This document shows positions 55,802 through 64,000 of a stretch of 64,000 nucleotides of DNA, piece after piece. The stretch covers positions 1 to 64,000 of the forward strand of contig NZ_JAJAFU010000014.1 of the NCBI RefSeq assembly GCF_020480685.1. Direction: 5' to 3'. Position 1 is the stretch's first letter. Each line of letters starts with the position of its first letter. The translations under genes and the position numbers were made by a program. The notes beneath the pieces are model-generated. The model was not told the DNA's origin, searched no databases, and saw only the letters and a program-made list of their open reading frames with translations. Origin of the DNA: Deferrivibrio essentukiensis. GTDB taxonomy: Bacteria > Chrysiogenota > Deferribacteres > Deferribacterales > Deferrivibrionaceae.

Positions 55802-55893
55802 GGAGAGATGGCCGAGTATGGTCGAAGGCGCTCGCCTGCTAAGCGAGTGTACCGTTAATCGCGGTACCGAGGGTTCAAATCCCTCTCTCTCCG
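55802..55893 (+). tRNA. tRNA-Ser (anticodon GCT), CCA not encoded
   Basis: Acceptor arms GGAGAGA and TCTCTCC pair fully, followed by discriminator G and then TTTA, so CCA must be added. The anticodon arm CTCGC-CTGCTAA-GCGAG gives GCT. A long variable arm and TTCAAAT T loop confirm tRNA-Ser. It lies nine bases after the first tRNA, probably in one transcript. Confidence 0.95.
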
Positions 55894-56020
55894 TTTATTA
55901 AATTACTAACACCTTGTTAAACTTCATTTTTTAAAATCCATTTTAAGCTTGGGGCCGTGAGAGGGACGTAAAATGTCTGATATAGTCCATCATATTCGAA
56001 CATAGCAGAACAAGATAATA

Positions 56021-56072: not shown

Positions 56073-56636
56073 TCAAGTATACGAGACTAACCTAATGTCA
56101 TCTGCAAGTTTTTCGGTTAACTTAGCTATTTTTTTATATACTATTGTGTCTGCATTTTCATACATTGCTTTACTGAATTTTGTAATCCATGGATAGAAAT
56201 ATTTTTCTAAAAATATATTTAATTTCTCTTTATCCTTAGAATTCTTGATATATTCAAGAATAGCAACTAAATGGTCTTCTCCATATTTAAAATTATCTGA
56301 TAATATAAAATTATCTTCAATATATTCAAATTTTATTTCTTCTGTTATTTTAGAGACAACAGTTTTGTTTTCACTTAAATGGTATGAAGCAATTGGAAAT
56401 GTATTGAAATCCTTTGGATGAGTAAAAAGTTTAACATAGTCAAAATTAAGTTCTTCTTCTACTACTTCAGCAGAATTTTGGCCTATGTATAACAAAATTT
56501 CTTTAATATCATCATCACAAACATCATCTAAAGGTATCTTTTTTAAGTCATTAATAATTTCGCTATTTAAATTATTTTTCAAAAATAATTGAAGGAAATC
56601 TATAATAAAAATTGTTTCTTCATTTAAGAACTGCAT
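56073..56636 (-). CDS. TorD/DmsD-type molybdoenzyme maturation chaperone
   Basis: The 187-residue, mainly helical protein has the TorD features: YVKLFTHPKDFNTFPIASYH (family pattern Y..LF..P......P.ESY), GEDHLVAILEYIK (the p.DH..EL helix), and YPWITKFSKAMYENADTIVYKK near the end. Such chaperones bind the Tat signal of a DMSO reductase family enzyme and help cofactor insertion before export. It follows the catalytic subunit gene, and is its probable partner. Sequence divergence from named members is large. Confidence 0.85.
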   Translation of the reverse strand: MQFLNEETIFIIDFLQLFLKNNLNSEIINDLKKIPLDDVCDDDIKEILLYIGQNSAEVVEEELNFDYVKLFTHPKDFNTFPIASYHLSENKTVVSKITEEIKFEYIEDNFILSDNFKYGEDHLVAILEYIKNSKDKEKLNIFLEKYFYPWITKFSKAMYENADTIVYKKIAKLTEKLADDIRLVSYT

Positions 56637-56662
56637 CTATGCCTCCATAAAAATATAAGGGG

Positions 56663-56681
56663 GGGCAGCCTTAAACTGCCC
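56663..56681 (-). terminator. Intercistronic hairpin between molybdoenzyme and chaperone genes
   Basis: GGGCAG and CTGCCC pair around a seven-base loop, with a TTATATTTTT tail on the minus strand after three extra C residues. It would lower chaperone expression relative to the enzyme. Confidence 0.55.
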
Positions 56682-56692
56682 TCAATTAAATT

Positions 56693-59530
56693 TTATACTT
56701 TCTTTATCCTAGCAATCATATCTGCAAACGTAGGAAATCCCATAATAGGTGACCTTCCATTTGGATCAGTCATTAGGTTAGCCAAAGGGGTAGTCCCTTT
56801 AACTTTGTAAAGAGGACCAATTTCCTTAACAAACCTACCACCAGTGCCAAATGCAATTTTAATAACTTTTGGTCTTATTCCACCTGATGCAAATATTTTG
56901 CCTCTTGTTGAAAAACCAAGGGGATTTTCAATTTCAACCAAATCACCTGTTTTTAAGTTTAGCTCTTTTGCATCATCTTCATTCATCCATATTGTGCCAA
57001 CTGAATAACTGTTTTTCTCAAATACTTGTTCTTTAGCTTTATATTTAGCTCCAGGTAAAACATCTACAGTTATGTCTTTAATTTCATCATTTAGCGGTTG
57101 CCATGTACCCTCAACTTTTATCTCAGATAGAAATGTTGCCATTTGAGTACCTGTCATAGCATGGTGAACTCGGCCATTTATAACCTGGAATGGATACTCA
57201 TTTTCAAATCTTTTGTATTTCAAATTAGTGTAAGGATTCCAAATAGTTTCAAACCAGTAAAATGTTTTTGGAAACTTTTCTAAGCCTATCTCTTTTAGCC
57301 CTGCTGGTATAACTTTTGATTCCTCAATACGCTTATTGTACTTAGAGTATCTTCCTTTTCTCTTTCCACTATCCTCATAATCCCAAACAAACTCAATTAG
57401 TTTAGAATCTGTCTTTGGAAAAGCTTTGTTAGGTTCATCGCTACCAACTTTTTTATACCTGTAATAGCTCATTGGCCATACAGCTACGCCTTTATTCTTT
57501 CTCAGCCATTCAACTGTGAGGGGTTTTCCTTTAATTACTTTTTTCTTATGATCTATTTCTACTTCACCTTTTTCTAATGACTCTGGTGTTCCTAAGATTT
57601 TATAACCTTCTGGATACTTAGGATATGGAAGTGGTGTGCCGACATTTAACTTTCCTGGCGAGACTGCTAACATTTCATTCACGAAATCTTCCTCTGAGTT
57701 ATATTTCAGCCAAAAATCTTCTCCTTTTAAATCCTTATCACCAAGTTCCACAAGTCTTTTAGCAAGCATATTCATTATTTCTGTTGGTTTTTTACTTTCA
57801 TAAAGAGGTTTAATAACCTCATCTCTTAAATATAACACAGGGTGTGATGGATAAATATCACTCAACGACATCCTTTCAACAAAACTTGCTTCTGGAAGAA
57901 TTACATCAGCATAAAGTGCACTTTCTAAAAAGATTGAATCTATCACTACAGAAAGTTCAAGTTTATATTCACCATTTGAATCTTTAGCTGTAAATGCTTT
58001 TTTCCAAGCTTCGGGATTAGAAGCGGTTATTAGTGAATTTCCTGTTCTTAAAATATAACCTTTAAATGGATATTTATGCCCTTTAAAAGGTCCATAAGTA
58101 ATGTTTACACCTTTAAATATTCTATCAGGTATATCGGCTACAACATCATCCCATGCTGAAGGGTACTGATCACCATAAGCATCTTTGTGAAGATGTTCGA
58201 CTTCGCCTTCTACCTCTTTGCCATTTATAACTTTTTTTATTTTTCTTTTTTTAAACTGCGCACCTTTGGCACTTCCACCTTTGCTGGCTTTAACTATTTC
58301 TGTATCAATGGCTCCTCCTGGAGCATCAAAGTTACCGGTAATTACATTCAACACCGTACCAATAATTGAGGCACAATATCCATTATAATGGTGCCCAGGA
58401 GATTGCATACCCCATACAAGTGTTGCAGGTTTGGTTATCCCAAAATCATGAGCTAAATTTCTTATCTGGTCTATCGTAAGCCCTGTTCTATCGCTAGCCC
58501 ACTCAAGAGAAAAATAGCTAAGATTATTTATTGGGTCCTTTTTGTTAAACCAGCTTTTAAATTCATCAAAAAATTTATCCCAACCTTTAACATATTTTTT
58601 CATATTCCAGTCGATATATCTTCTATCAGGATTATTAGGGTTATCATTTTCAATAATATATCTTAACATTGCACCGAAAAGGTCACCATCAGTTCCTGCA
58701 CGTGGTGCAAGCCACTGGTCTGCGGCAGTTGCAGTATTGGAATATGAAGGATCAATTACAACAACCTTACATCCATTCTTAAGTTTTGCCTCAACAGTAC
58801 CTCTATTTTCATAGTAAATTCTAGTTGATACAAAAGGGTTCCAACCGTTATAAATTATAAGTTTTGTTTTGTAGTCATAATTTTTAGTCAGATTACCTTT
58901 TTTATCCCTTATTAAGAGAGGTCTCATTATGTCAGGCTGAATTCTTTTACCACCTAAGATAAGTTTTGGACCATGTCTTCTAGGAGTATCACAAATTGCA
59001 CCATGCTCAACACAGTTTGGAGTTCCCCATGCAAAAAACAATCTCCAGTATTGATCTCTGTCCGTTACATCTCCAGTATTCATCATAACAGATTCAGCAC
59101 CATATTCTTTTTTGATTTTGGTAAGTTTTTTTGCAATAAAGTCTATTGCTTCGTCCCAACTAACTTTTTTAAATTGTCCACTTCCTCTTTCGCCTGTTCT
59201 TATCATTGGGTGCTTTATCCTGTAAGGTGAATATACCAGCTGGGGAATAGATGCGGCTTTAGCACAACAAGTTCCATCATTCATAGGAACATCTTTGTTC
59301 CCATAAATCTTCCATAGGTTTCCACCTTTTGACCAAAACTCAAGACCACACTCGGCAGGGCACATAGCATCAGCACTAAAAACTTTTTTATAATTTTTTA
59401 GCTCTTCTTTTATAATTCCGGCTTCTTTTGGGGAGATTTTGGCAAGAACATCTCCAGATTTAGCGTTTATTGCGGCAATAGTAGCAGCTGCTGCGGATGA
59501 TTTTAGAAAATTTCTTCTACTTATTTTCAT
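56693..59530 (-). CDS. Tat-exported molybdopterin oxidoreductase, catalytic subunit (DMSO reductase family)
   Basis: The 945-residue protein begins with a twin-arginine signal (KISRRNFLKSSAAAATIAA). The Fe-S region reads D-A-M-C-P-A-E-C and then, 27 residues on, a Cys in GTCCAK: three of the four usual Cys are present and Asp occupies the first ligand position. The Mo ligand is probably Cys in EHGAICDTP. Domains typical of the family follow (NGWNPFVSTRIYYENRG, VIDPSYSNTATAADQW, and a C-terminal dinucleotide-binding part with LKTGDLVEIEN). The subunit should reduce or oxidise a small oxyanion or sulfur compound in the periplasm. Arsenate, polysulfide, thiosulfate, tetrathionate and selenate enzymes are all possible. 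GGGAGG precedes the ATG. Confidence 0.9.
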   Translation of the reverse strand: MKISRRNFLKSSAAAATIAAINAKSGDVLAKISPKEAGIIKEELKNYKKVFSADAMCPAECGLEFWSKGGNLWKIYGNKDVPMNDGTCCAKAASIPQLVYSPYRIKHPMIRTGERGSGQFKKVSWDEAIDFIAKKLTKIKKEYGAESVMMNTGDVTDRDQYWRLFFAWGTPNCVEHGAICDTPRRHGPKLILGGKRIQPDIMRPLLIRDKKGNLTKNYDYKTKLIIYNGWNPFVSTRIYYENRGTVEAKLKNGCKVVVIDPSYSNTATAADQWLAPRAGTDGDLFGAMLRYIIENDNPNNPDRRYIDWNMKKYVKGWDKFFDEFKSWFNKKDPINNLSYFSLEWASDRTGLTIDQIRNLAHDFGITKPATLVWGMQSPGHHYNGYCASIIGTVLNVITGNFDAPGGAIDTEIVKASKGGSAKGAQFKKRKIKKVINGKEVEGEVEHLHKDAYGDQYPSAWDDVVADIPDRIFKGVNITYGPFKGHKYPFKGYILRTGNSLITASNPEAWKKAFTAKDSNGEYKLELSVVIDSIFLESALYADVILPEASFVERMSLSDIYPSHPVLYLRDEVIKPLYESKKPTEIMNMLAKRLVELGDKDLKGEDFWLKYNSEEDFVNEMLAVSPGKLNVGTPLPYPKYPEGYKILGTPESLEKGEVEIDHKKKVIKGKPLTVEWLRKNKGVAVWPMSYYRYKKVGSDEPNKAFPKTDSKLIEFVWDYEDSGKRKGRYSKYNKRIEESKVIPAGLKEIGLEKFPKTFYWFETIWNPYTNLKYKRFENEYPFQVINGRVHHAMTGTQMATFLSEIKVEGTWQPLNDEIKDITVDVLPGAKYKAKEQVFEKNSYSVGTIWMNEDDAKELNLKTGDLVEIENPLGFSTRGKIFASGGIRPKVIKIAFGTGGRFVKEIGPLYKVKGTTPLANLMTDPNGRSPIMGFPTFADMIARIKKV

Positions 59531-59533
59531 AAC

Positions 59534-60202
59534 CTATACCTCCCTGTTTATTTCTTTGTCAGCTACTTCAAACACCTTAAAGTCTTTAATAAAATATGTC
59601 ACTCTAGGTTTTGTACCAAATTCTTCATTCCATTTAGCACCTTTTACAGTTTTTAATAGCTTTGAAACTGTACTATTAGGGTCATTTAGGTCACCAAAAT
59701 ATCTGGCTTTACCAGGGCAATTTCTTACACACGCAGGTTCTTCAATCCCAGCAGCAATCCTGTGAAAACAGAAATCACATTTATCAATAACAAATAATGA
59801 TTTTTTAGTTTTACCTTTAACCTCTTCCACTTTTGGATATTTTGCTGGGTCATTTTTGATATTAATATTTTTATTTAGGTATCTTGCACCGTATGGACAT
59901 GCATCGGCACATCTTCCGCAACCTAAACAGAGATCTCTGTCAACAACAACTGTTCCATCCTTTCTTTTATAAGTTGCTCCTTTTACCGGACATGGAGATA
60001 AACATGGTGGGTTGTCACAATGATTACAGAGCTTTGGAAAAAAGAATCTTTTAGGTGTAGGATATTTTCCAATGTCTGCATAATCGACTCTTGATCTAAA
60101 AGAGCCAAAAGGAACCTCATTTTCCTGTTTACATGTTACTTGGCAACTGCCGCAACCAACACACTTTCTTAAATCCACAATAAATGCATATTTTTTACTC
60201 AT
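59534..60202 (-). CDS. Four-cluster ferredoxin-type electron transfer subunit of the molybdoenzyme
   Basis: The 222-residue protein has sixteen Cys in four [4Fe-4S] patterns: CVGCGSCQVTCK, CNHCDNPPCLSPCPV, CLGCGRCADACPYG, and CDFCFHRIAAG followed by PACVRNCPG. This is the DmsB/PhsB/PsrB type. It has no signal peptide and should be exported with the Tat-tagged catalytic subunit encoded three bases downstream. ATG at 60202 follows AGGAGG; a GTG two codons earlier is an alternative. No membrane anchor gene is adjacent, so the link to quinones is not explained. Confidence 0.93.
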   Translation of the reverse strand: MSKKYAFIVDLRKCVGCGSCQVTCKQENEVPFGSFRSRVDYADIGKYPTPKRFFFPKLCNHCDNPPCLSPCPVKGATYKRKDGTVVVDRDLCLGCGRCADACPYGARYLNKNINIKNDPAKYPKVEEVKGKTKKSLFVIDKCDFCFHRIAAGIEEPACVRNCPGKARYFGDLNDPNSTVSKLLKTVKGAKWNEEFGTKPRVTYFIKDFKVFEVADKEINREV

Positions 60203-60228
60203 AAGCACCTCCTAAGTTAGAAATTAGG

Positions 60229-60244
60229 AGCAAGTAGTATGCCA
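60229..60244 (-). promoter_or_regulatory. Sigma-54 (-24/-12) promoter of the molybdoenzyme operon
   Basis: On the minus strand TGGCAT-ACTAC-TTGCT matches the sigma-54 consensus, with GG and GC ten bases apart as required. It ends about 27 bases before the ferredoxin subunit start, leaving a short leader with the ribosome site. A sigma-54 activator is encoded directly upstream. Confidence 0.85.
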
Positions 60245-60303
60245 ATGAGTATTTTGCTCAAATCTAGTATTTAAGCGGATTGATTAAAATGATAATTATA
60301 GAT

Positions 60304-60343
60304 TGTTCAAATTGGCAACAGTAAATTGTTATAATAATGAACA
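60304..60343 (-). promoter_or_regulatory. Two 17-bp dyads TGTT-N9-AACA, likely activator-binding sites
   Basis: Two copies of TGTT-N9-AACA lie at 60304-60320 and 60327-60343, centres 23 bp apart, about two helical turns. They are roughly 60-115 bp upstream of the -24 element, where activators of sigma-54 promoters bind. The adjacent NtrC-type regulator is the obvious candidate to bind them. Confidence 0.7.
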
Positions 60344-60349
60344 GTTAGA

Positions 60350-61711
60350 TTAGTCATCTAAACCAAGTAACTTTCTCAATTTATTGCGTGACACTTTAAG
60401 CTTATCTGCTGTTAAAACCTGGTTCTTTCCATATTTAATATAAAAGCTATTTGCTATATTTTCCTCTATTTTCAATATGAAATCATTTAAACCATTACTT
60501 TCTATCAATTCTTCATACTCAGATAACAAAGAAGCAAAAGCCAAATCTTCTTTTTGAGACTCATTGATAATTGCTATATCATCCGCATGAATTACATCTG
60601 AACCATTTATGACTGCTCTTTTAATAATATTTTCCAACTCTCTAATATTCCCAGGGTAATCATATTTAATTAGCTTATCTGCCGCTTTCTGTGTTAATTT
60701 TATCTTCCTGTCAGCATACTTACTCAAGAAGTATTTACATAATGGAATAATATCATCTTTTCTTTCTCTAAGTGGTTTTAAATTTATTTCAAATGTGTTC
60801 AAGCGATAATATAAATCATTTCTAAATAGTTTCAAATTAACAAGTTCTGGTATATTTCTATTTGTAGCTGCAATAAATCTAACATTAATTTTCTTTATTT
60901 TATTACTGCCAAGTTTTACAATTTCTCTCTCCTGTAAAACCCTTAAAATTTTAGCTTGCAAAGTTAAGGGCATATCCCCTATTTCATCCAAAAATACAGT
61001 CCCCCCTTCTGCAAATTCTAGTTTCCCTATATGGTCATTGGAAGCACCAGTAAAAGCCCCCTTTTCATAACCAAAAAGTTCACTTTCAAGAAGATCAGCC
61101 GGAATAGAACTACAATTTATTGCTACAAAATTTTTGTTTCTTCTCTTCGAAAAATTGTGTAAAGCTTTTGCTACTATTTCTTTACCCGTACCTGTTTCAC
61201 CTGTGATTAAAACAGATTCATCTGTCTGAGATATCTTCCCAATCTTTTTGATTGTATCCAACATGTGAGTTGAGTTGCTAATTATCTTTTCATTACAATC
61301 ATTATCATTTTGTACACACAAATAAGTACCAAAGTCTTGTTCTTTATCTTCTTTTAAAATATTTGAAATAATACTGTTGAGCTGGTCACTATCAAAAGGT
61401 TTTAGTATATAATCAAATGCTCCTTTTTTCATTGCATCTATAGCGATATCAGTTTCGTGAAAAGCTGTCATCACAATCACTTTAGTATTTGATTCTGCAA
61501 AATTTGACGATGATAATTTTTCTAAAAGTTCCAAACCATCAATATCAGGGAGCTTCACATCTAAAAAAATTATATCAAAAATATTCCCATAAAAGAGTTT
61601 AAGTCCACTTGTTCCATCATAAGCCAATACTACATGCATTCCCTTTTGTTCAAGTAATCTACGCAATGAATAACAGATTGATTTTTGATCATCTATAACT
61701 AAAACGTTCAT
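60350..61711 (-). CDS. Sigma-54-dependent response regulator (NtrC family)
   Basis: The 453-residue protein has a receiver domain with D7-D8 and phospho-acceptor D51. The AAA+ domain has Walker A GETGTGKE and the sigma-54 contact loop GAFTGA in ELFGYEKGAFTGAS. A Fis-type helix-turn-helix follows at the end (LTADKLKVSRNKLRKLLG). It should activate the -24/-12 promoter directly downstream. Its start overlaps the kinase stop by four bases (ATGA). All functional motifs are intact. Confidence 0.94.
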   Translation of the reverse strand: MNVLVIDDQKSICYSLRRLLEQKGMHVVLAYDGTSGLKLFYGNIFDIIFLDVKLPDIDGLELLEKLSSSNFAESNTKVIVMTAFHETDIAIDAMKKGAFDYILKPFDSDQLNSIISNILKEDKEQDFGTYLCVQNDNDCNEKIISNSTHMLDTIKKIGKISQTDESVLITGETGTGKEIVAKALHNFSKRRNKNFVAINCSSIPADLLESELFGYEKGAFTGASNDHIGKLEFAEGGTVFLDEIGDMPLTLQAKILRVLQEREIVKLGSNKIKKINVRFIAATNRNIPELVNLKLFRNDLYYRLNTFEINLKPLRERKDDIIPLCKYFLSKYADRKIKLTQKAADKLIKYDYPGNIRELENIIKRAVINGSDVIHADDIAIINESQKEDLAFASLLSEYEELIESNGLNDFILKIEENIANSFYIKYGKNQVLTADKLKVSRNKLRKLLGLDD

Positions 61712-63090
61712 ATTGTTCCTCTTAACAATATTCTAAATGAAGTTAAATTGGCTTTGCTTTCCACAGCAATATCACCATAATGGATTTTAACGATGTTGTA
61801 TACTATATAAAGCCCCATCCCTGTTCCATCTTTTTTTGTTGTGAAAAAAGGATCAAAAACTTTACTTAAGTTAACAGTTGAAATGCCTTTTCCGCTATCA
61901 GAAAAAATTATTTCAACACCTTCATCTAGATATTTTGTGCTTATATTTATAAAACCGTTACTTTCAATCGCCTCTAATGAATTTCTAACTAAATTATAAA
62001 AAAGAAGTTCTAAAAGAGGAAAATAACCTTTTATATATTTTATTTCTGAACTCTGATTATAATTAACTGCTACCTTTTTCTGCAAAATAGAGTCTTTAAA
62101 TTCCATCAAAACATTTTCAATAATCTCATGAATATTTACAAAACCTATATCTATTTCTGAAACAACAAACTGCCCAGTAAGCTTTTTTAAAAGTTCTTCT
62201 ATGTTATTAGTTTCATCTCTTATAATAGCTATATCATCGTTTTTTATATTATTCTCGTTAAGTCCACTCACTAATAATTTTATTGAAGTAATGGAGCTTT
62301 TTATTTCATGTAAAATACCTGATTTAAGTGTATTAAAAGCACTTATTTTTTCTGTAAGTAAAAGATTATTAAATGTGTGTTTAAAATTATCATGGTATCT
62401 TTTTAATTCTATAGAAAGGTTATTTAAAGTTTCAATAATTTTTCTTACTTCAAGAGAGCCTGATGGGGTAGTAGTTACACCAAACTCTTTATTCATAAGC
62501 TTATTAGCAAAATGGTACAAATCGCTCAAAGGTTTTGTTAAAAAATTACTTAATAAATAAGACAATATTAATACTATAATTACAATTAAAATAATATATT
62601 GTATAAATTTATCCATAACTCGTTTAAATAAAAATTCAATACTATTTTCAGTAAAACCTAAGTGCATTTCATAATCAAGGTTATCAATAATTTTAACGCC
62701 CACATCATGGATAATTTCTTTTTTATTTTTTAAAAGAACTACATTAGTATCTTTGCCTTCTAAATTATTCCAGGTTTCAATACCAACTGGAATATATTCT
62801 CCGAAAGTTGATACCAGAATATTTCTGTTTTCATCTAAAATATAGATATACTCAATGCCATTATTTGTTTTTTTTATTTTTGAAAGACTCTTTTCAATTT
62901 TAAGTAAGTCAGAAAGGAGAAGGTCATTAGCAATCATATTTGCAGTTACTTTAGCAAAAGATATTGAAATTTTATCAGCCTCTTCCCTCATAGAAATTTT
63001 TGTATAGTTTGAGACCATAAAGAAGATTCCAAATGATATTGCTAAAACTACAAAAAGCATTGATAGAAAAAGCTTTAGTTTAAACTTCAT
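61708..63090 (-). CDS. Membrane sensor histidine kinase
   Basis: The 460-residue kinase has membrane segments near 5-26 and 165-187, an extracytoplasmic domain between them, a HAMP segment, the His in SGILHEIKSS, an N-box in YNLVRNSLEAIE, and the ATP-binding glycine boxes SDSGKGIS and GTGMGLYIVYNIV. It forms a pair with the NtrC-type regulator. Its start overlaps the stop of the PhnD-like lipoprotein gene by four bases, so ligand information probably comes from that protein. The arrangement matches AioX-AioS-AioR. Confidence 0.93.
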   Translation of the reverse strand: MKFKLKLFLSMLFVVLAISFGIFFMVSNYTKISMREEADKISISFAKVTANMIANDLLLSDLLKIEKSLSKIKKTNNGIEYIYILDENRNILVSTFGEYIPVGIETWNNLEGKDTNVVLLKNKKEIIHDVGVKIIDNLDYEMHLGFTENSIEFLFKRVMDKFIQYIILIVIIVLILSYLLSNFLTKPLSDLYHFANKLMNKEFGVTTTPSGSLEVRKIIETLNNLSIELKRYHDNFKHTFNNLLLTEKISAFNTLKSGILHEIKSSITSIKLLVSGLNENNIKNDDIAIIRDETNNIEELLKKLTGQFVVSEIDIGFVNIHEIIENVLMEFKDSILQKKVAVNYNQSSEIKYIKGYFPLLELLFYNLVRNSLEAIESNGFINISTKYLDEGVEIIFSDSGKGISTVNLSKVFDPFFTTKKDGTGMGLYIVYNIVKIHYGDIAVESKANLTSFRILLRGTI

Positions 63091-64000
63091 TTTAGATTGT
63101 AATATTTATTTATTAAAGACATAAGGTCTCCAAACCTAACATTTTCAGCATCTGTAAATCCATTTTCCATTTCCGTAAATTTCCATAAATCACTTTTAAA
63201 GCCATTTTTGGGATTAAATTCCAAAAGAGCAGCTTTTATTATATTTTTTTTAGCTGATGATAAATATGGGGATACACAAACCGTACTTGATGGAAAAGGT
63301 TTTGATAGTTTTACTATATCTAAAATCCCCTCTTCTGCCATCTTAAAAGCTAACTTATCCTGAATTGCACCTGCATCTGCAAACCCATTTACAACTTTGT
63401 TTACCACATCTTTATGAGAGTCTGAAAATTCATATTCCAAATCTTTTAGGTATATTCCTGCATCTTCAAGCATTTTTCTTGGGATAAGGTAACCTTGAGT
63501 TGAATATTTATTACCAAAAACAAATTTTTTGTGTTTAATATCTTTTAAGCTATTTATAGTTTTGTTACCAGCCTTTTTGATTATGGCTCCTTTATAATAA
63601 GGTTGACTTTGACCATTTAGTCCGAAAACGATTGGGTATGAGCCATATTTACTGCCAGATAGTAAACAACTCACTGTCCCCATTAAAGATATATCAATGC
63701 TACCTTTACCTAACATGTGTATATTATCTGGATAGTTTCTAGGTACTTTTATTTTATAGTTAAACCCTGTTTTTGCCTCCAGATATTTTATAAGGGGCAT
63801 ATAAAATGCTACATCTTCTGTAGGTTCCCATCTCAGATCAAATCCAACGTATATTGTATTATTATCAACATTTTTAAGATTTTTATCACTGATGGAAATT
63901 TTTTGGGTTTTTGAAAGATCTATTTCTTTGAAATCTTCATTACCATTACATGCGACAAGAGAAAAAATAATTAAATATAAAAAAAAATAAAAAAAGATAT
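63087..64000 (-). CDS. PhnD-like periplasmic binding lipoprotein, 5' end outside window
   Basis: The frame stays open to the right edge and its first codons lie beyond the window. The visible start reads IFFYFFLYLIIFSLVAC, a lipoprotein signal with the acylated Cys. The body is a PhnD/phosphonate-type binding fold: VGFDLRWEPTEDVAFYMPLI, IDISLMGTVSCLL, then SLKDIKHKKFVFGNKYSTQG and a VSPYLSS hinge. An ATG at 63800 is internal. Relatives such as AioX bind arsenite and signal to a histidine kinase. Overlap with the kinase gene supports the same design here; the ligand is unknown. Confidence 0.85.
   Translation of the reverse strand, partial: IFFYFFLYLIIFSLVACNGNEDFKEIDLSKTQKISISDKNLKNVDNNTIYVGFDLRWEPTEDVAFYMPLIKYLEAKTGFNYKIKVPRNYPDNIHMLGKGSIDISLMGTVSCLLSGSKYGSYPIVFGLNGQSQPYYKGAIIKKAGNKTINSLKDIKHKKFVFGNKYSTQGYLIPRKMLEDAGIYLKDLEYEFSDSHKDVVNKVVNGFADAGAIQDKLAFKMAEEGILDIVKLSKPFPSSTVCVSPYLSSAKKNIIKAALLEFNPKNGFKSDLWKFTEMENGFTDAENVRFGDLMSLINKYYNLK

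Follow-up and report, generated by a model that had tools for sequence, protein, structure and literature searches.

The intergenic region at 60203-60349 of the window (the whole 64,000-nucleotide stretch of Deferrivibrio essentukiensis DNA analysed in the current study) is very probably a sigma-54 promoter with two upstream predicted operator dyads for R, the NtrC-type activator encoded beside it. The data strongly support a wider reading, in which R, the twin dyads, the -24/-12 promoter and the target operon B-A-D would form a single regulatory circuit. The circuit is of a known kind, with AioXSR and ArxXSR as its closest counterparts, and its new aspects are the enzyme clade that it targets and the pocket of its sensor.

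The gene cluster and its control region

The features of the region are as follows.

56073..56636, minus strand: D, TorD/DmsD-like maturation chaperone (PF02613)
56693..59530, minus strand: A, Tat-exported molybdopterin catalytic subunit of 945 aa (PF00384, PF01568, PF04879, PF10518)
59534..60202, minus strand: B, ferredoxin-type Fe-S subunit, encoded first in the target operon (Fer4 domains)
60208..60213, minus strand: ribosome-binding site AGGAGG, 5' of B (from the sequence)
60217..60218, minus strand: predicted transcription start, 12-13 nt past the -12 GC (from the promoter position)
60229..60245, minus strand: sigma-54 -24/-12 promoter TTGGCATACTACTTGCT, perfect match to TTGGCAY-N5-TTGCW
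60304..60320, minus strand: proximal dyad TGTTGCCAATTTGAACA, TGTT-N9-AACA, centre at about -94 relative to the predicted start
60327..60343, minus strand: distal dyad TGTTCATTATTATAACA, TGTT-N9-AACA, centre at about -117 relative to the predicted start
60350..61711, minus strand: R, NtrC-family response regulator with an AAA+ sigma-54 interaction domain (PF00072, PF00158)
61708..63090, minus strand: S, membrane sensor histidine kinase (HATPase_c; AtoS/ZraS-like, below the cut-offs of these families)
63087..64000, minus strand: X, PhnD-like substrate-binding lipoprotein and candidate signal receptor (PF12974, 132 bits)

The start codon of X lies outside the window, with candidates at contig positions 64055 and 64091, and the nearest solved relatives of the protein include phosphite- and phosphonate-binding proteins as well as ArrX (6x6b). 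R is 46% identical to its orthologue in another genome of the phylum (G017), and the GAFTGA loop and the D51 region are conserved in the alignment. The best NCBIfam scores of B were 180 bits for TtrB (cut-off 416) and 172 for ArrB (cut-off 450). A G+C-rich hairpin at 56661-56683, between the A and D genes, is perhaps a processing or attenuation point. No promoter or dyads were found 5' of X in the window's contig or in locus L033.

The promoter and both dyads sit between R, whose stop codon is at 60350, and the ATG of B at 60202. Read on the minus strand from 60245 to 60229, the promoter has GG at 60243-60242, ten bases, and GC at 60231-60230, so that the exact GG-N10-GC spacing claimed in the original prediction holds. 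The two 17-bp dyads of the same pattern that it had described are likewise read directly at 60343-60327 and 60320-60304, with a start-to-start distance of 23 bp. The activator gene does adjoin the nearer dyad as had been stated, but the gap between the end of the R ORF and the distal dyad is six bases and not seven. The perfect TTGGCAY-N5-TTGCW sequence (no mismatch) occurs five times in the 2.36 Mb genome of the organism (G000), which also carries an RpoN gene (G000:C9:8303-9646; 416 bits, cut-off 277); rpoN was present in all eight genomes tested.

Conservation of the control region in two phyla

Among 50 genomes of the phylum, A was found in two, namely the organism's own and G017 (75% identical), and a close X in three (own, G017 and G008). 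The G017 locus contains the full X-S-R-B-A-D cluster, with dyads 18 bp apart and the promoter ATGGCACCTCTCTTGCT. In G008, the contig breaks off within B, so that only the beginning of this gene follows X-S-R, and here the dyads are 23 bp apart and the promoter is CTGGCATAGATTATGCT. The three Deferribacterota-type loci thus share gene order and twin dyads, while the spacing and interior of the dyads vary among their intergenic regions. In a further genome (G027; L124 5379-13520), an X-S-R-like module adjoins a TtrA-like molybdoenzyme (554 bits, cut-off 1750), and no dyads or sigma-54 element were found upstream of the B-like gene beside this enzyme.

A wider search found G309, in a second phylum, where 38 of 395 genomes matched A. 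The matches comprise 14 close full-length copies, a longer class, and a single paralogue; the loci examined were those of all 14 close copies and seven of the longer class (L143, L174-L193). The close loci all contain A, B and D (B of L183 is 60% identical). X was seen in 12 of them and R in 12, with one or the other at every locus, and where X or R is missing, its place lies on the border of the examined stretch or outside it. R of the second phylum is 42-45% identical to that of the window and has GAFTGA in all 12 cases.

A joint motif was defined as GG-N10-GC with at least seven of eight further matches, preceded 30-90 nt upstream by two TGYWC-N7-GWRCA dyads with at most three mismatches over both sites. 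In this test, which was devised after the sites had been seen, the motif was present at 14 of 17 B starts, and the 270 remaining ORF starts of the same 21 loci all lacked it; in the window it occurred at one of 73 ORF starts, that of B. The three failures were L182, which lacks the GG, L183, which lacks the C of the GC, and L185, in which a perfect promoter lies 375 nt upstream of B and a convincing dyad pair is absent. The elements stay with B where the gene order changes: L177 and L184 carry X and S on the downstream side of B-A-D, and other genes separate R from B in L143, L176 and L186. For the dyad pair alone, 12 of the 17 loci were matched by at most one of 1000 shuffles, and L174, L176, L182, L185 and L186 by 7-22 of 1000.

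At homologues without an adjacent X-S-R the joint elements were found in none of seven cases (six B-A fusions and the G599 paralogue, the latter on a contig that also carries a regular B-A-D and an R). In the fusion loci (L187-L193 except L191), B and A are seemingly joined in one protein of 1079-1120 aa; X-S-R and the promoter motif are absent, and several of these loci adjoin genes that by eye resemble those of aromatic amino-acid biosynthesis.

The original prediction had made its case depend on conservation of the dyads in related genomes, and the promoter and twin dyads are indeed conserved at orthologous B genes in two phyla. Its broader statement, that signal protein, kinase, activator, twin sites, promoter and target operon all lie in one stretch, is supported by the protein domains, the GAFTGA loop, the presence of rpoN and this conservation.

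Specificity of the dyad pair

TGTT-N9-AACA had also been put forward as a search pattern for the rest of the regulon. The single dyad failed in this use and was rejected as a regulon probe, with 80 places in the organism's own genome compared with 113 for the reversed control pattern, and only the pair is usable. In the window the single dyad was observed five times (2.57 expected), and the full palindrome TGTTC-N7-GAACA showed no enrichment in the own genome (two occurrences, control two).

The pair occurred at one place in the own genome. A blind search for it among the 50 phylum genomes matched five (reversed control: three), and three of the five places fall between an R and a B gene, in the own genome, G017 and G008. 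In dinucleotide shuffles of the three intergenic regions (20,000 each) the pair never appeared. A pattern that combined dyad and promoter gave matches in 13 of 50 genomes, with none of 50 in the control direction; those inspected were the three B loci and the other own-genome match. In the own genome this pattern marks B and one other pair of an NtrC-type gene and a cytochrome gene.

Among the 395 genomes of the second phylum, the 36-bp twin pattern was recovered blind in 18 with at most three mismatches, compared with one for the reversed control. With at most two mismatches it was found at 15 distinct places, 13 of them upstream of a B gene. The twin sites in G449 and G625 accompany a sigma-54 element and B genes 63-65% identical to that of the window, and both genomes were absent from the protein search matches. 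In G524 the pattern lies inside a coding region.

Two other units were observed with this kind of site. In L212 (second phylum; G398:C23, about 44.7 kb), a twin dyad and then a sigma-54 element lie between an NtrC-type gene and the gene of a multihaem cytochrome; this twin site is another of the 15 places. L144 4270-7647 (G000:C2, about 90.3-93.6 kb) has the same layout of activator, site, promoter and multihaem cytochrome, with a second NtrC-type activator gene and then one TGTT-N9-AACA, which precedes a perfect sigma-54 promoter and the gene of a 641-aa multihaem cytochrome c. From these units, the TGTT/AACA arms may therefore be common to several NtrC-type proteins.

Over all loci the dyad is better expressed as TGYWC-N7-GWRCA. 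The dyad-to-dyad spacing varies (23, 18, 23 and mostly 19 bp), and because it differs among loci the two dyads do not share one common helical phase. NtrC enhancer sites have the form TGCAC-N7-GTGCA. The dyads resemble sites of this type in that they are paired upstream palindromes of 17 bp whose 5-base arms are separated by 7 bases, but their arms favour TGTTC/GAACA, and the second phylum mixes in TGCAC-like arms.

With these data, a chance origin of promoter and dyads in AT-rich DNA can be practically dismissed: the single dyad occurs no more often than its reversed control, which fits chance, but pair and promoter recur jointly at orthologous genes in two phyla and were recovered blind. A less extreme though still quite improbable alternative is that the dyads serve another regulator, which might be a different activator of the NtrC type or might repress R or B, and that the adjacent R acts elsewhere. 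The cytochrome units lend themselves to this explanation, with a second NtrC-type gene ahead of a dyad and a perfect sigma-54 promoter in the own genome, and ahead of a twin site and sigma-54 promoter in G398. It is opposed by the company that the sites keep, since among the phylum genomes a close X is found in exactly those with the twin site at B, every close second-phylum locus has X or R, and the elements are missing from all seven homologues that lack X-S-R. R as the protein that would bind the dyads remains the preferred reading.

Relation to known XSR systems

Control of aioBA by AioXSR and RpoN has been described in Agrobacterium, Rhizobium NT-26 and Herminiimonas (PMC5908839, PMC5335332). 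The present cluster has in common with the system of these accounts a PhnD-like X, a kinase S, an AtoC/NtrC-type R and an RpoN promoter before a molybdoenzyme operon (PMC5908839, PMC5335332), together with a palindromic predicted R site with GTT/AAC arms (PMC5335332, PMC5908839). Unlike the AioR site reported as GTT-N10-AAC (footprint GTTCGGATTTCCGAAC; PMC5335332), the site here is GTT-N9-AAC and paired. X here also differs in being a predicted lipoprotein with Gly and Gln in place of Cys106 and Ser163, and the enzyme is not AioA.

ArxXSR/arxB'AB of Alkalilimnicola is similar in its XSR genes, its AAA+ R and a putative RpoN promoter before the enzyme genes, as given in PMC5908839; the pocket residues differ, and A scored far below the related ArrA model (the scan listed no ArxA model of its own). 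The likeness to ArrXSR/arrAB (Chrysiogenes arsenatis and Epsilonproteobacteria) lies in the relationship of X to ArrX and in B and A subunits without a C gene in the immediate cluster; from X to D, in the window as in L033, no gene was found for a membrane-anchor C subunit like that of PhsA/PsrA clusters. By contrast, ArrR of Chrysiogenes is described as CitB-like and without AAA+ (PMC5908839), and A is far below the ArrA cut-off. According to the same account, Deferribacteres lack arrXSR (PMC5908839).

The hallmarks of an XSR system found here are adjacent X, S and R genes, a sigma-54 interaction domain in R, and an RpoN promoter and palindrome before a molybdoenzyme operon. The GTT-N10-AAC spacing of AioR and the full arsenic-oxyanion pocket are absent. 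X-S-R in combination with the clade of A was described in none of the titles or displayed abstracts of the open-licence PMC papers that the literature searches listed.

Sensor pocket and enzyme identity

The arsenic-oxyanion pocket of AioX is reported to consist of Tyr88, Cys106, Tyr131, Ser161, Ser163, His192 and Asp210 (PMC5908839), and these residues were mapped onto X by way of an ArrX alignment. All 15 X proteins have the lipobox Cys and keep the positions of Tyr88, Ser161, His192 and Asp210. The position of Cys106 is Gly and that of Ser163 is Gln, again in 15 of 15, and the position of Tyr131 is occupied by Y, F, E or R. The Gly and Gln are evidence that speaks against arsenite as the likely ligand and for another oxyanion.

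A was below every NCBIfam cut-off, with 241 bits for PhsA (NF012032; cut-off 694), 117 for ArrA (1600), 72 for TtrA (NF011567; 1750) and 51 for arsenite oxidase (359). The cut-offs of the Arr models NF041714/NF041715 were reached neither by A (117, cut-off 1600) nor by B (172, cut-off 450), and the orthologue of A in L174 had a PhsA score of 238 (cut-off 694). Members of the clade of A scored at least 801 bits, and the next protein of the tested set 118. Judged from these scores, A is a member of an uncharacterised clade outside Aio, Arx and Arr. A plasmid search with A gave no match, and a scan of named genomes gave 59 loci, all distant (best-segment identity 20-36%) and none in the clade.

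The enzyme could on this evidence be an arsenate reductase or arsenite oxidase (Arr/Arx) under an ordinary arsenic-sensing XSR module, which is unlikely. XSR modules accompany Aio, Arx and Arr according to PMC5908839, ArrX is among the sequence relatives of X, and an ArrA-like gene (1083 bits, under the 1600 cut-off) stands beside B-A-D in L179. Both the enzyme and the sensor argue the other way, the former by scores of A that are small fractions of the ArrA and arsenite oxidase cut-offs, and the latter by the uniform replacement of Ser163 and of the arsenic-coordinating Cys106. A more plausible alternative, though still only tentative, is that B-A-D is a sulfur enzyme of the MOLY type (MolyA, MolyB and a TorD-like MolyC), in which case the signal for X would be a sulfur oxyanion. 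The MOLY cluster is a candidate for sulfur disproportionation (PMC12998232), and as set out there it has the same three-gene content of catalytic subunit, Fe-S subunit and TorD-like chaperone without a membrane anchor; the top family score of A, moreover, is that of thiosulfate reductase PhsA. The likeness is one of gene content; the full cluster is reported in Desulfobacterota only, and the available part of PMC12998232 makes no mention of X-S-R or sigma-54.

In L179 (3370-15939; G599), it was also seen that the ArrA-like gene and a B-like gene adjoin B-A-D and that B-A-D is preceded by a second, paralogous B-A pair, whose A is 45% identical.

Proposed mechanism

In the pathway favoured here, the lipoprotein X would bind an oxyanion outside the inner membrane and signal to kinase S, which would phosphorylate R. 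Phosphorylated R would bind both 17-bp dyads (TGYWC-N7-GWRCA, here TGTT-N9-AACA) at about -117 and -94, form an AAA+ ring and loop to RNA polymerase-sigma54 at the -24/-12 element. The looped activator would then turn on B-A-D, a predicted Tat-exported Fe-S/molybdopterin oxidoreductase with its own chaperone. B-A may be a respiratory enzyme for the oxyanion that X senses, or for a related one.

Possible mobility and significance of the cluster

Two genomes of the same genus lack A, and their similarity to the window's flank stops at 55894 and 55896. Both positions fall at the 3' end of tRNA-Ser(gct) (55802-55893), and the X-S-R-B-A-D region begins right after. From this stop in similarity, the cluster therefore looks like an island inserted at tRNA-Ser(gct) in the window's genome. 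The G017 copy has transposase-like ORFs, identified by eye, on both sides. An M16-type peptidase gene that adjoins the island has one in-frame TAG in G012 (L214; G012:C1:1333561-1334823).

There is about an even chance that X-S-R-B-A-D is a self-contained cassette that moves horizontally, occurs in both Deferribacterota and the second phylum, and entered the window's genome at tRNA-Ser. Such a cassette would equip a respiratory or sulfur-disproportionating molybdoenzyme not described before with a non-arsenic oxyanion receptor and an operator pair of its own; if so, ligand binding by the receptor X could name the substrate of the enzyme. Copies of the cassette can be located from DNA alone by the paired operator, which is specific enough for this even in broken assemblies. 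XSR-plus-sigma-54 control, known for arsenic enzymes, would gain as a further target a molybdoenzyme clade that is uncharacterised and spans two phyla, with a sensor whose pocket is missing the arsenic-binding cysteine. X is a small binding protein, so that simple ligand screening can reveal the inducer and probably the enzyme substrate too.
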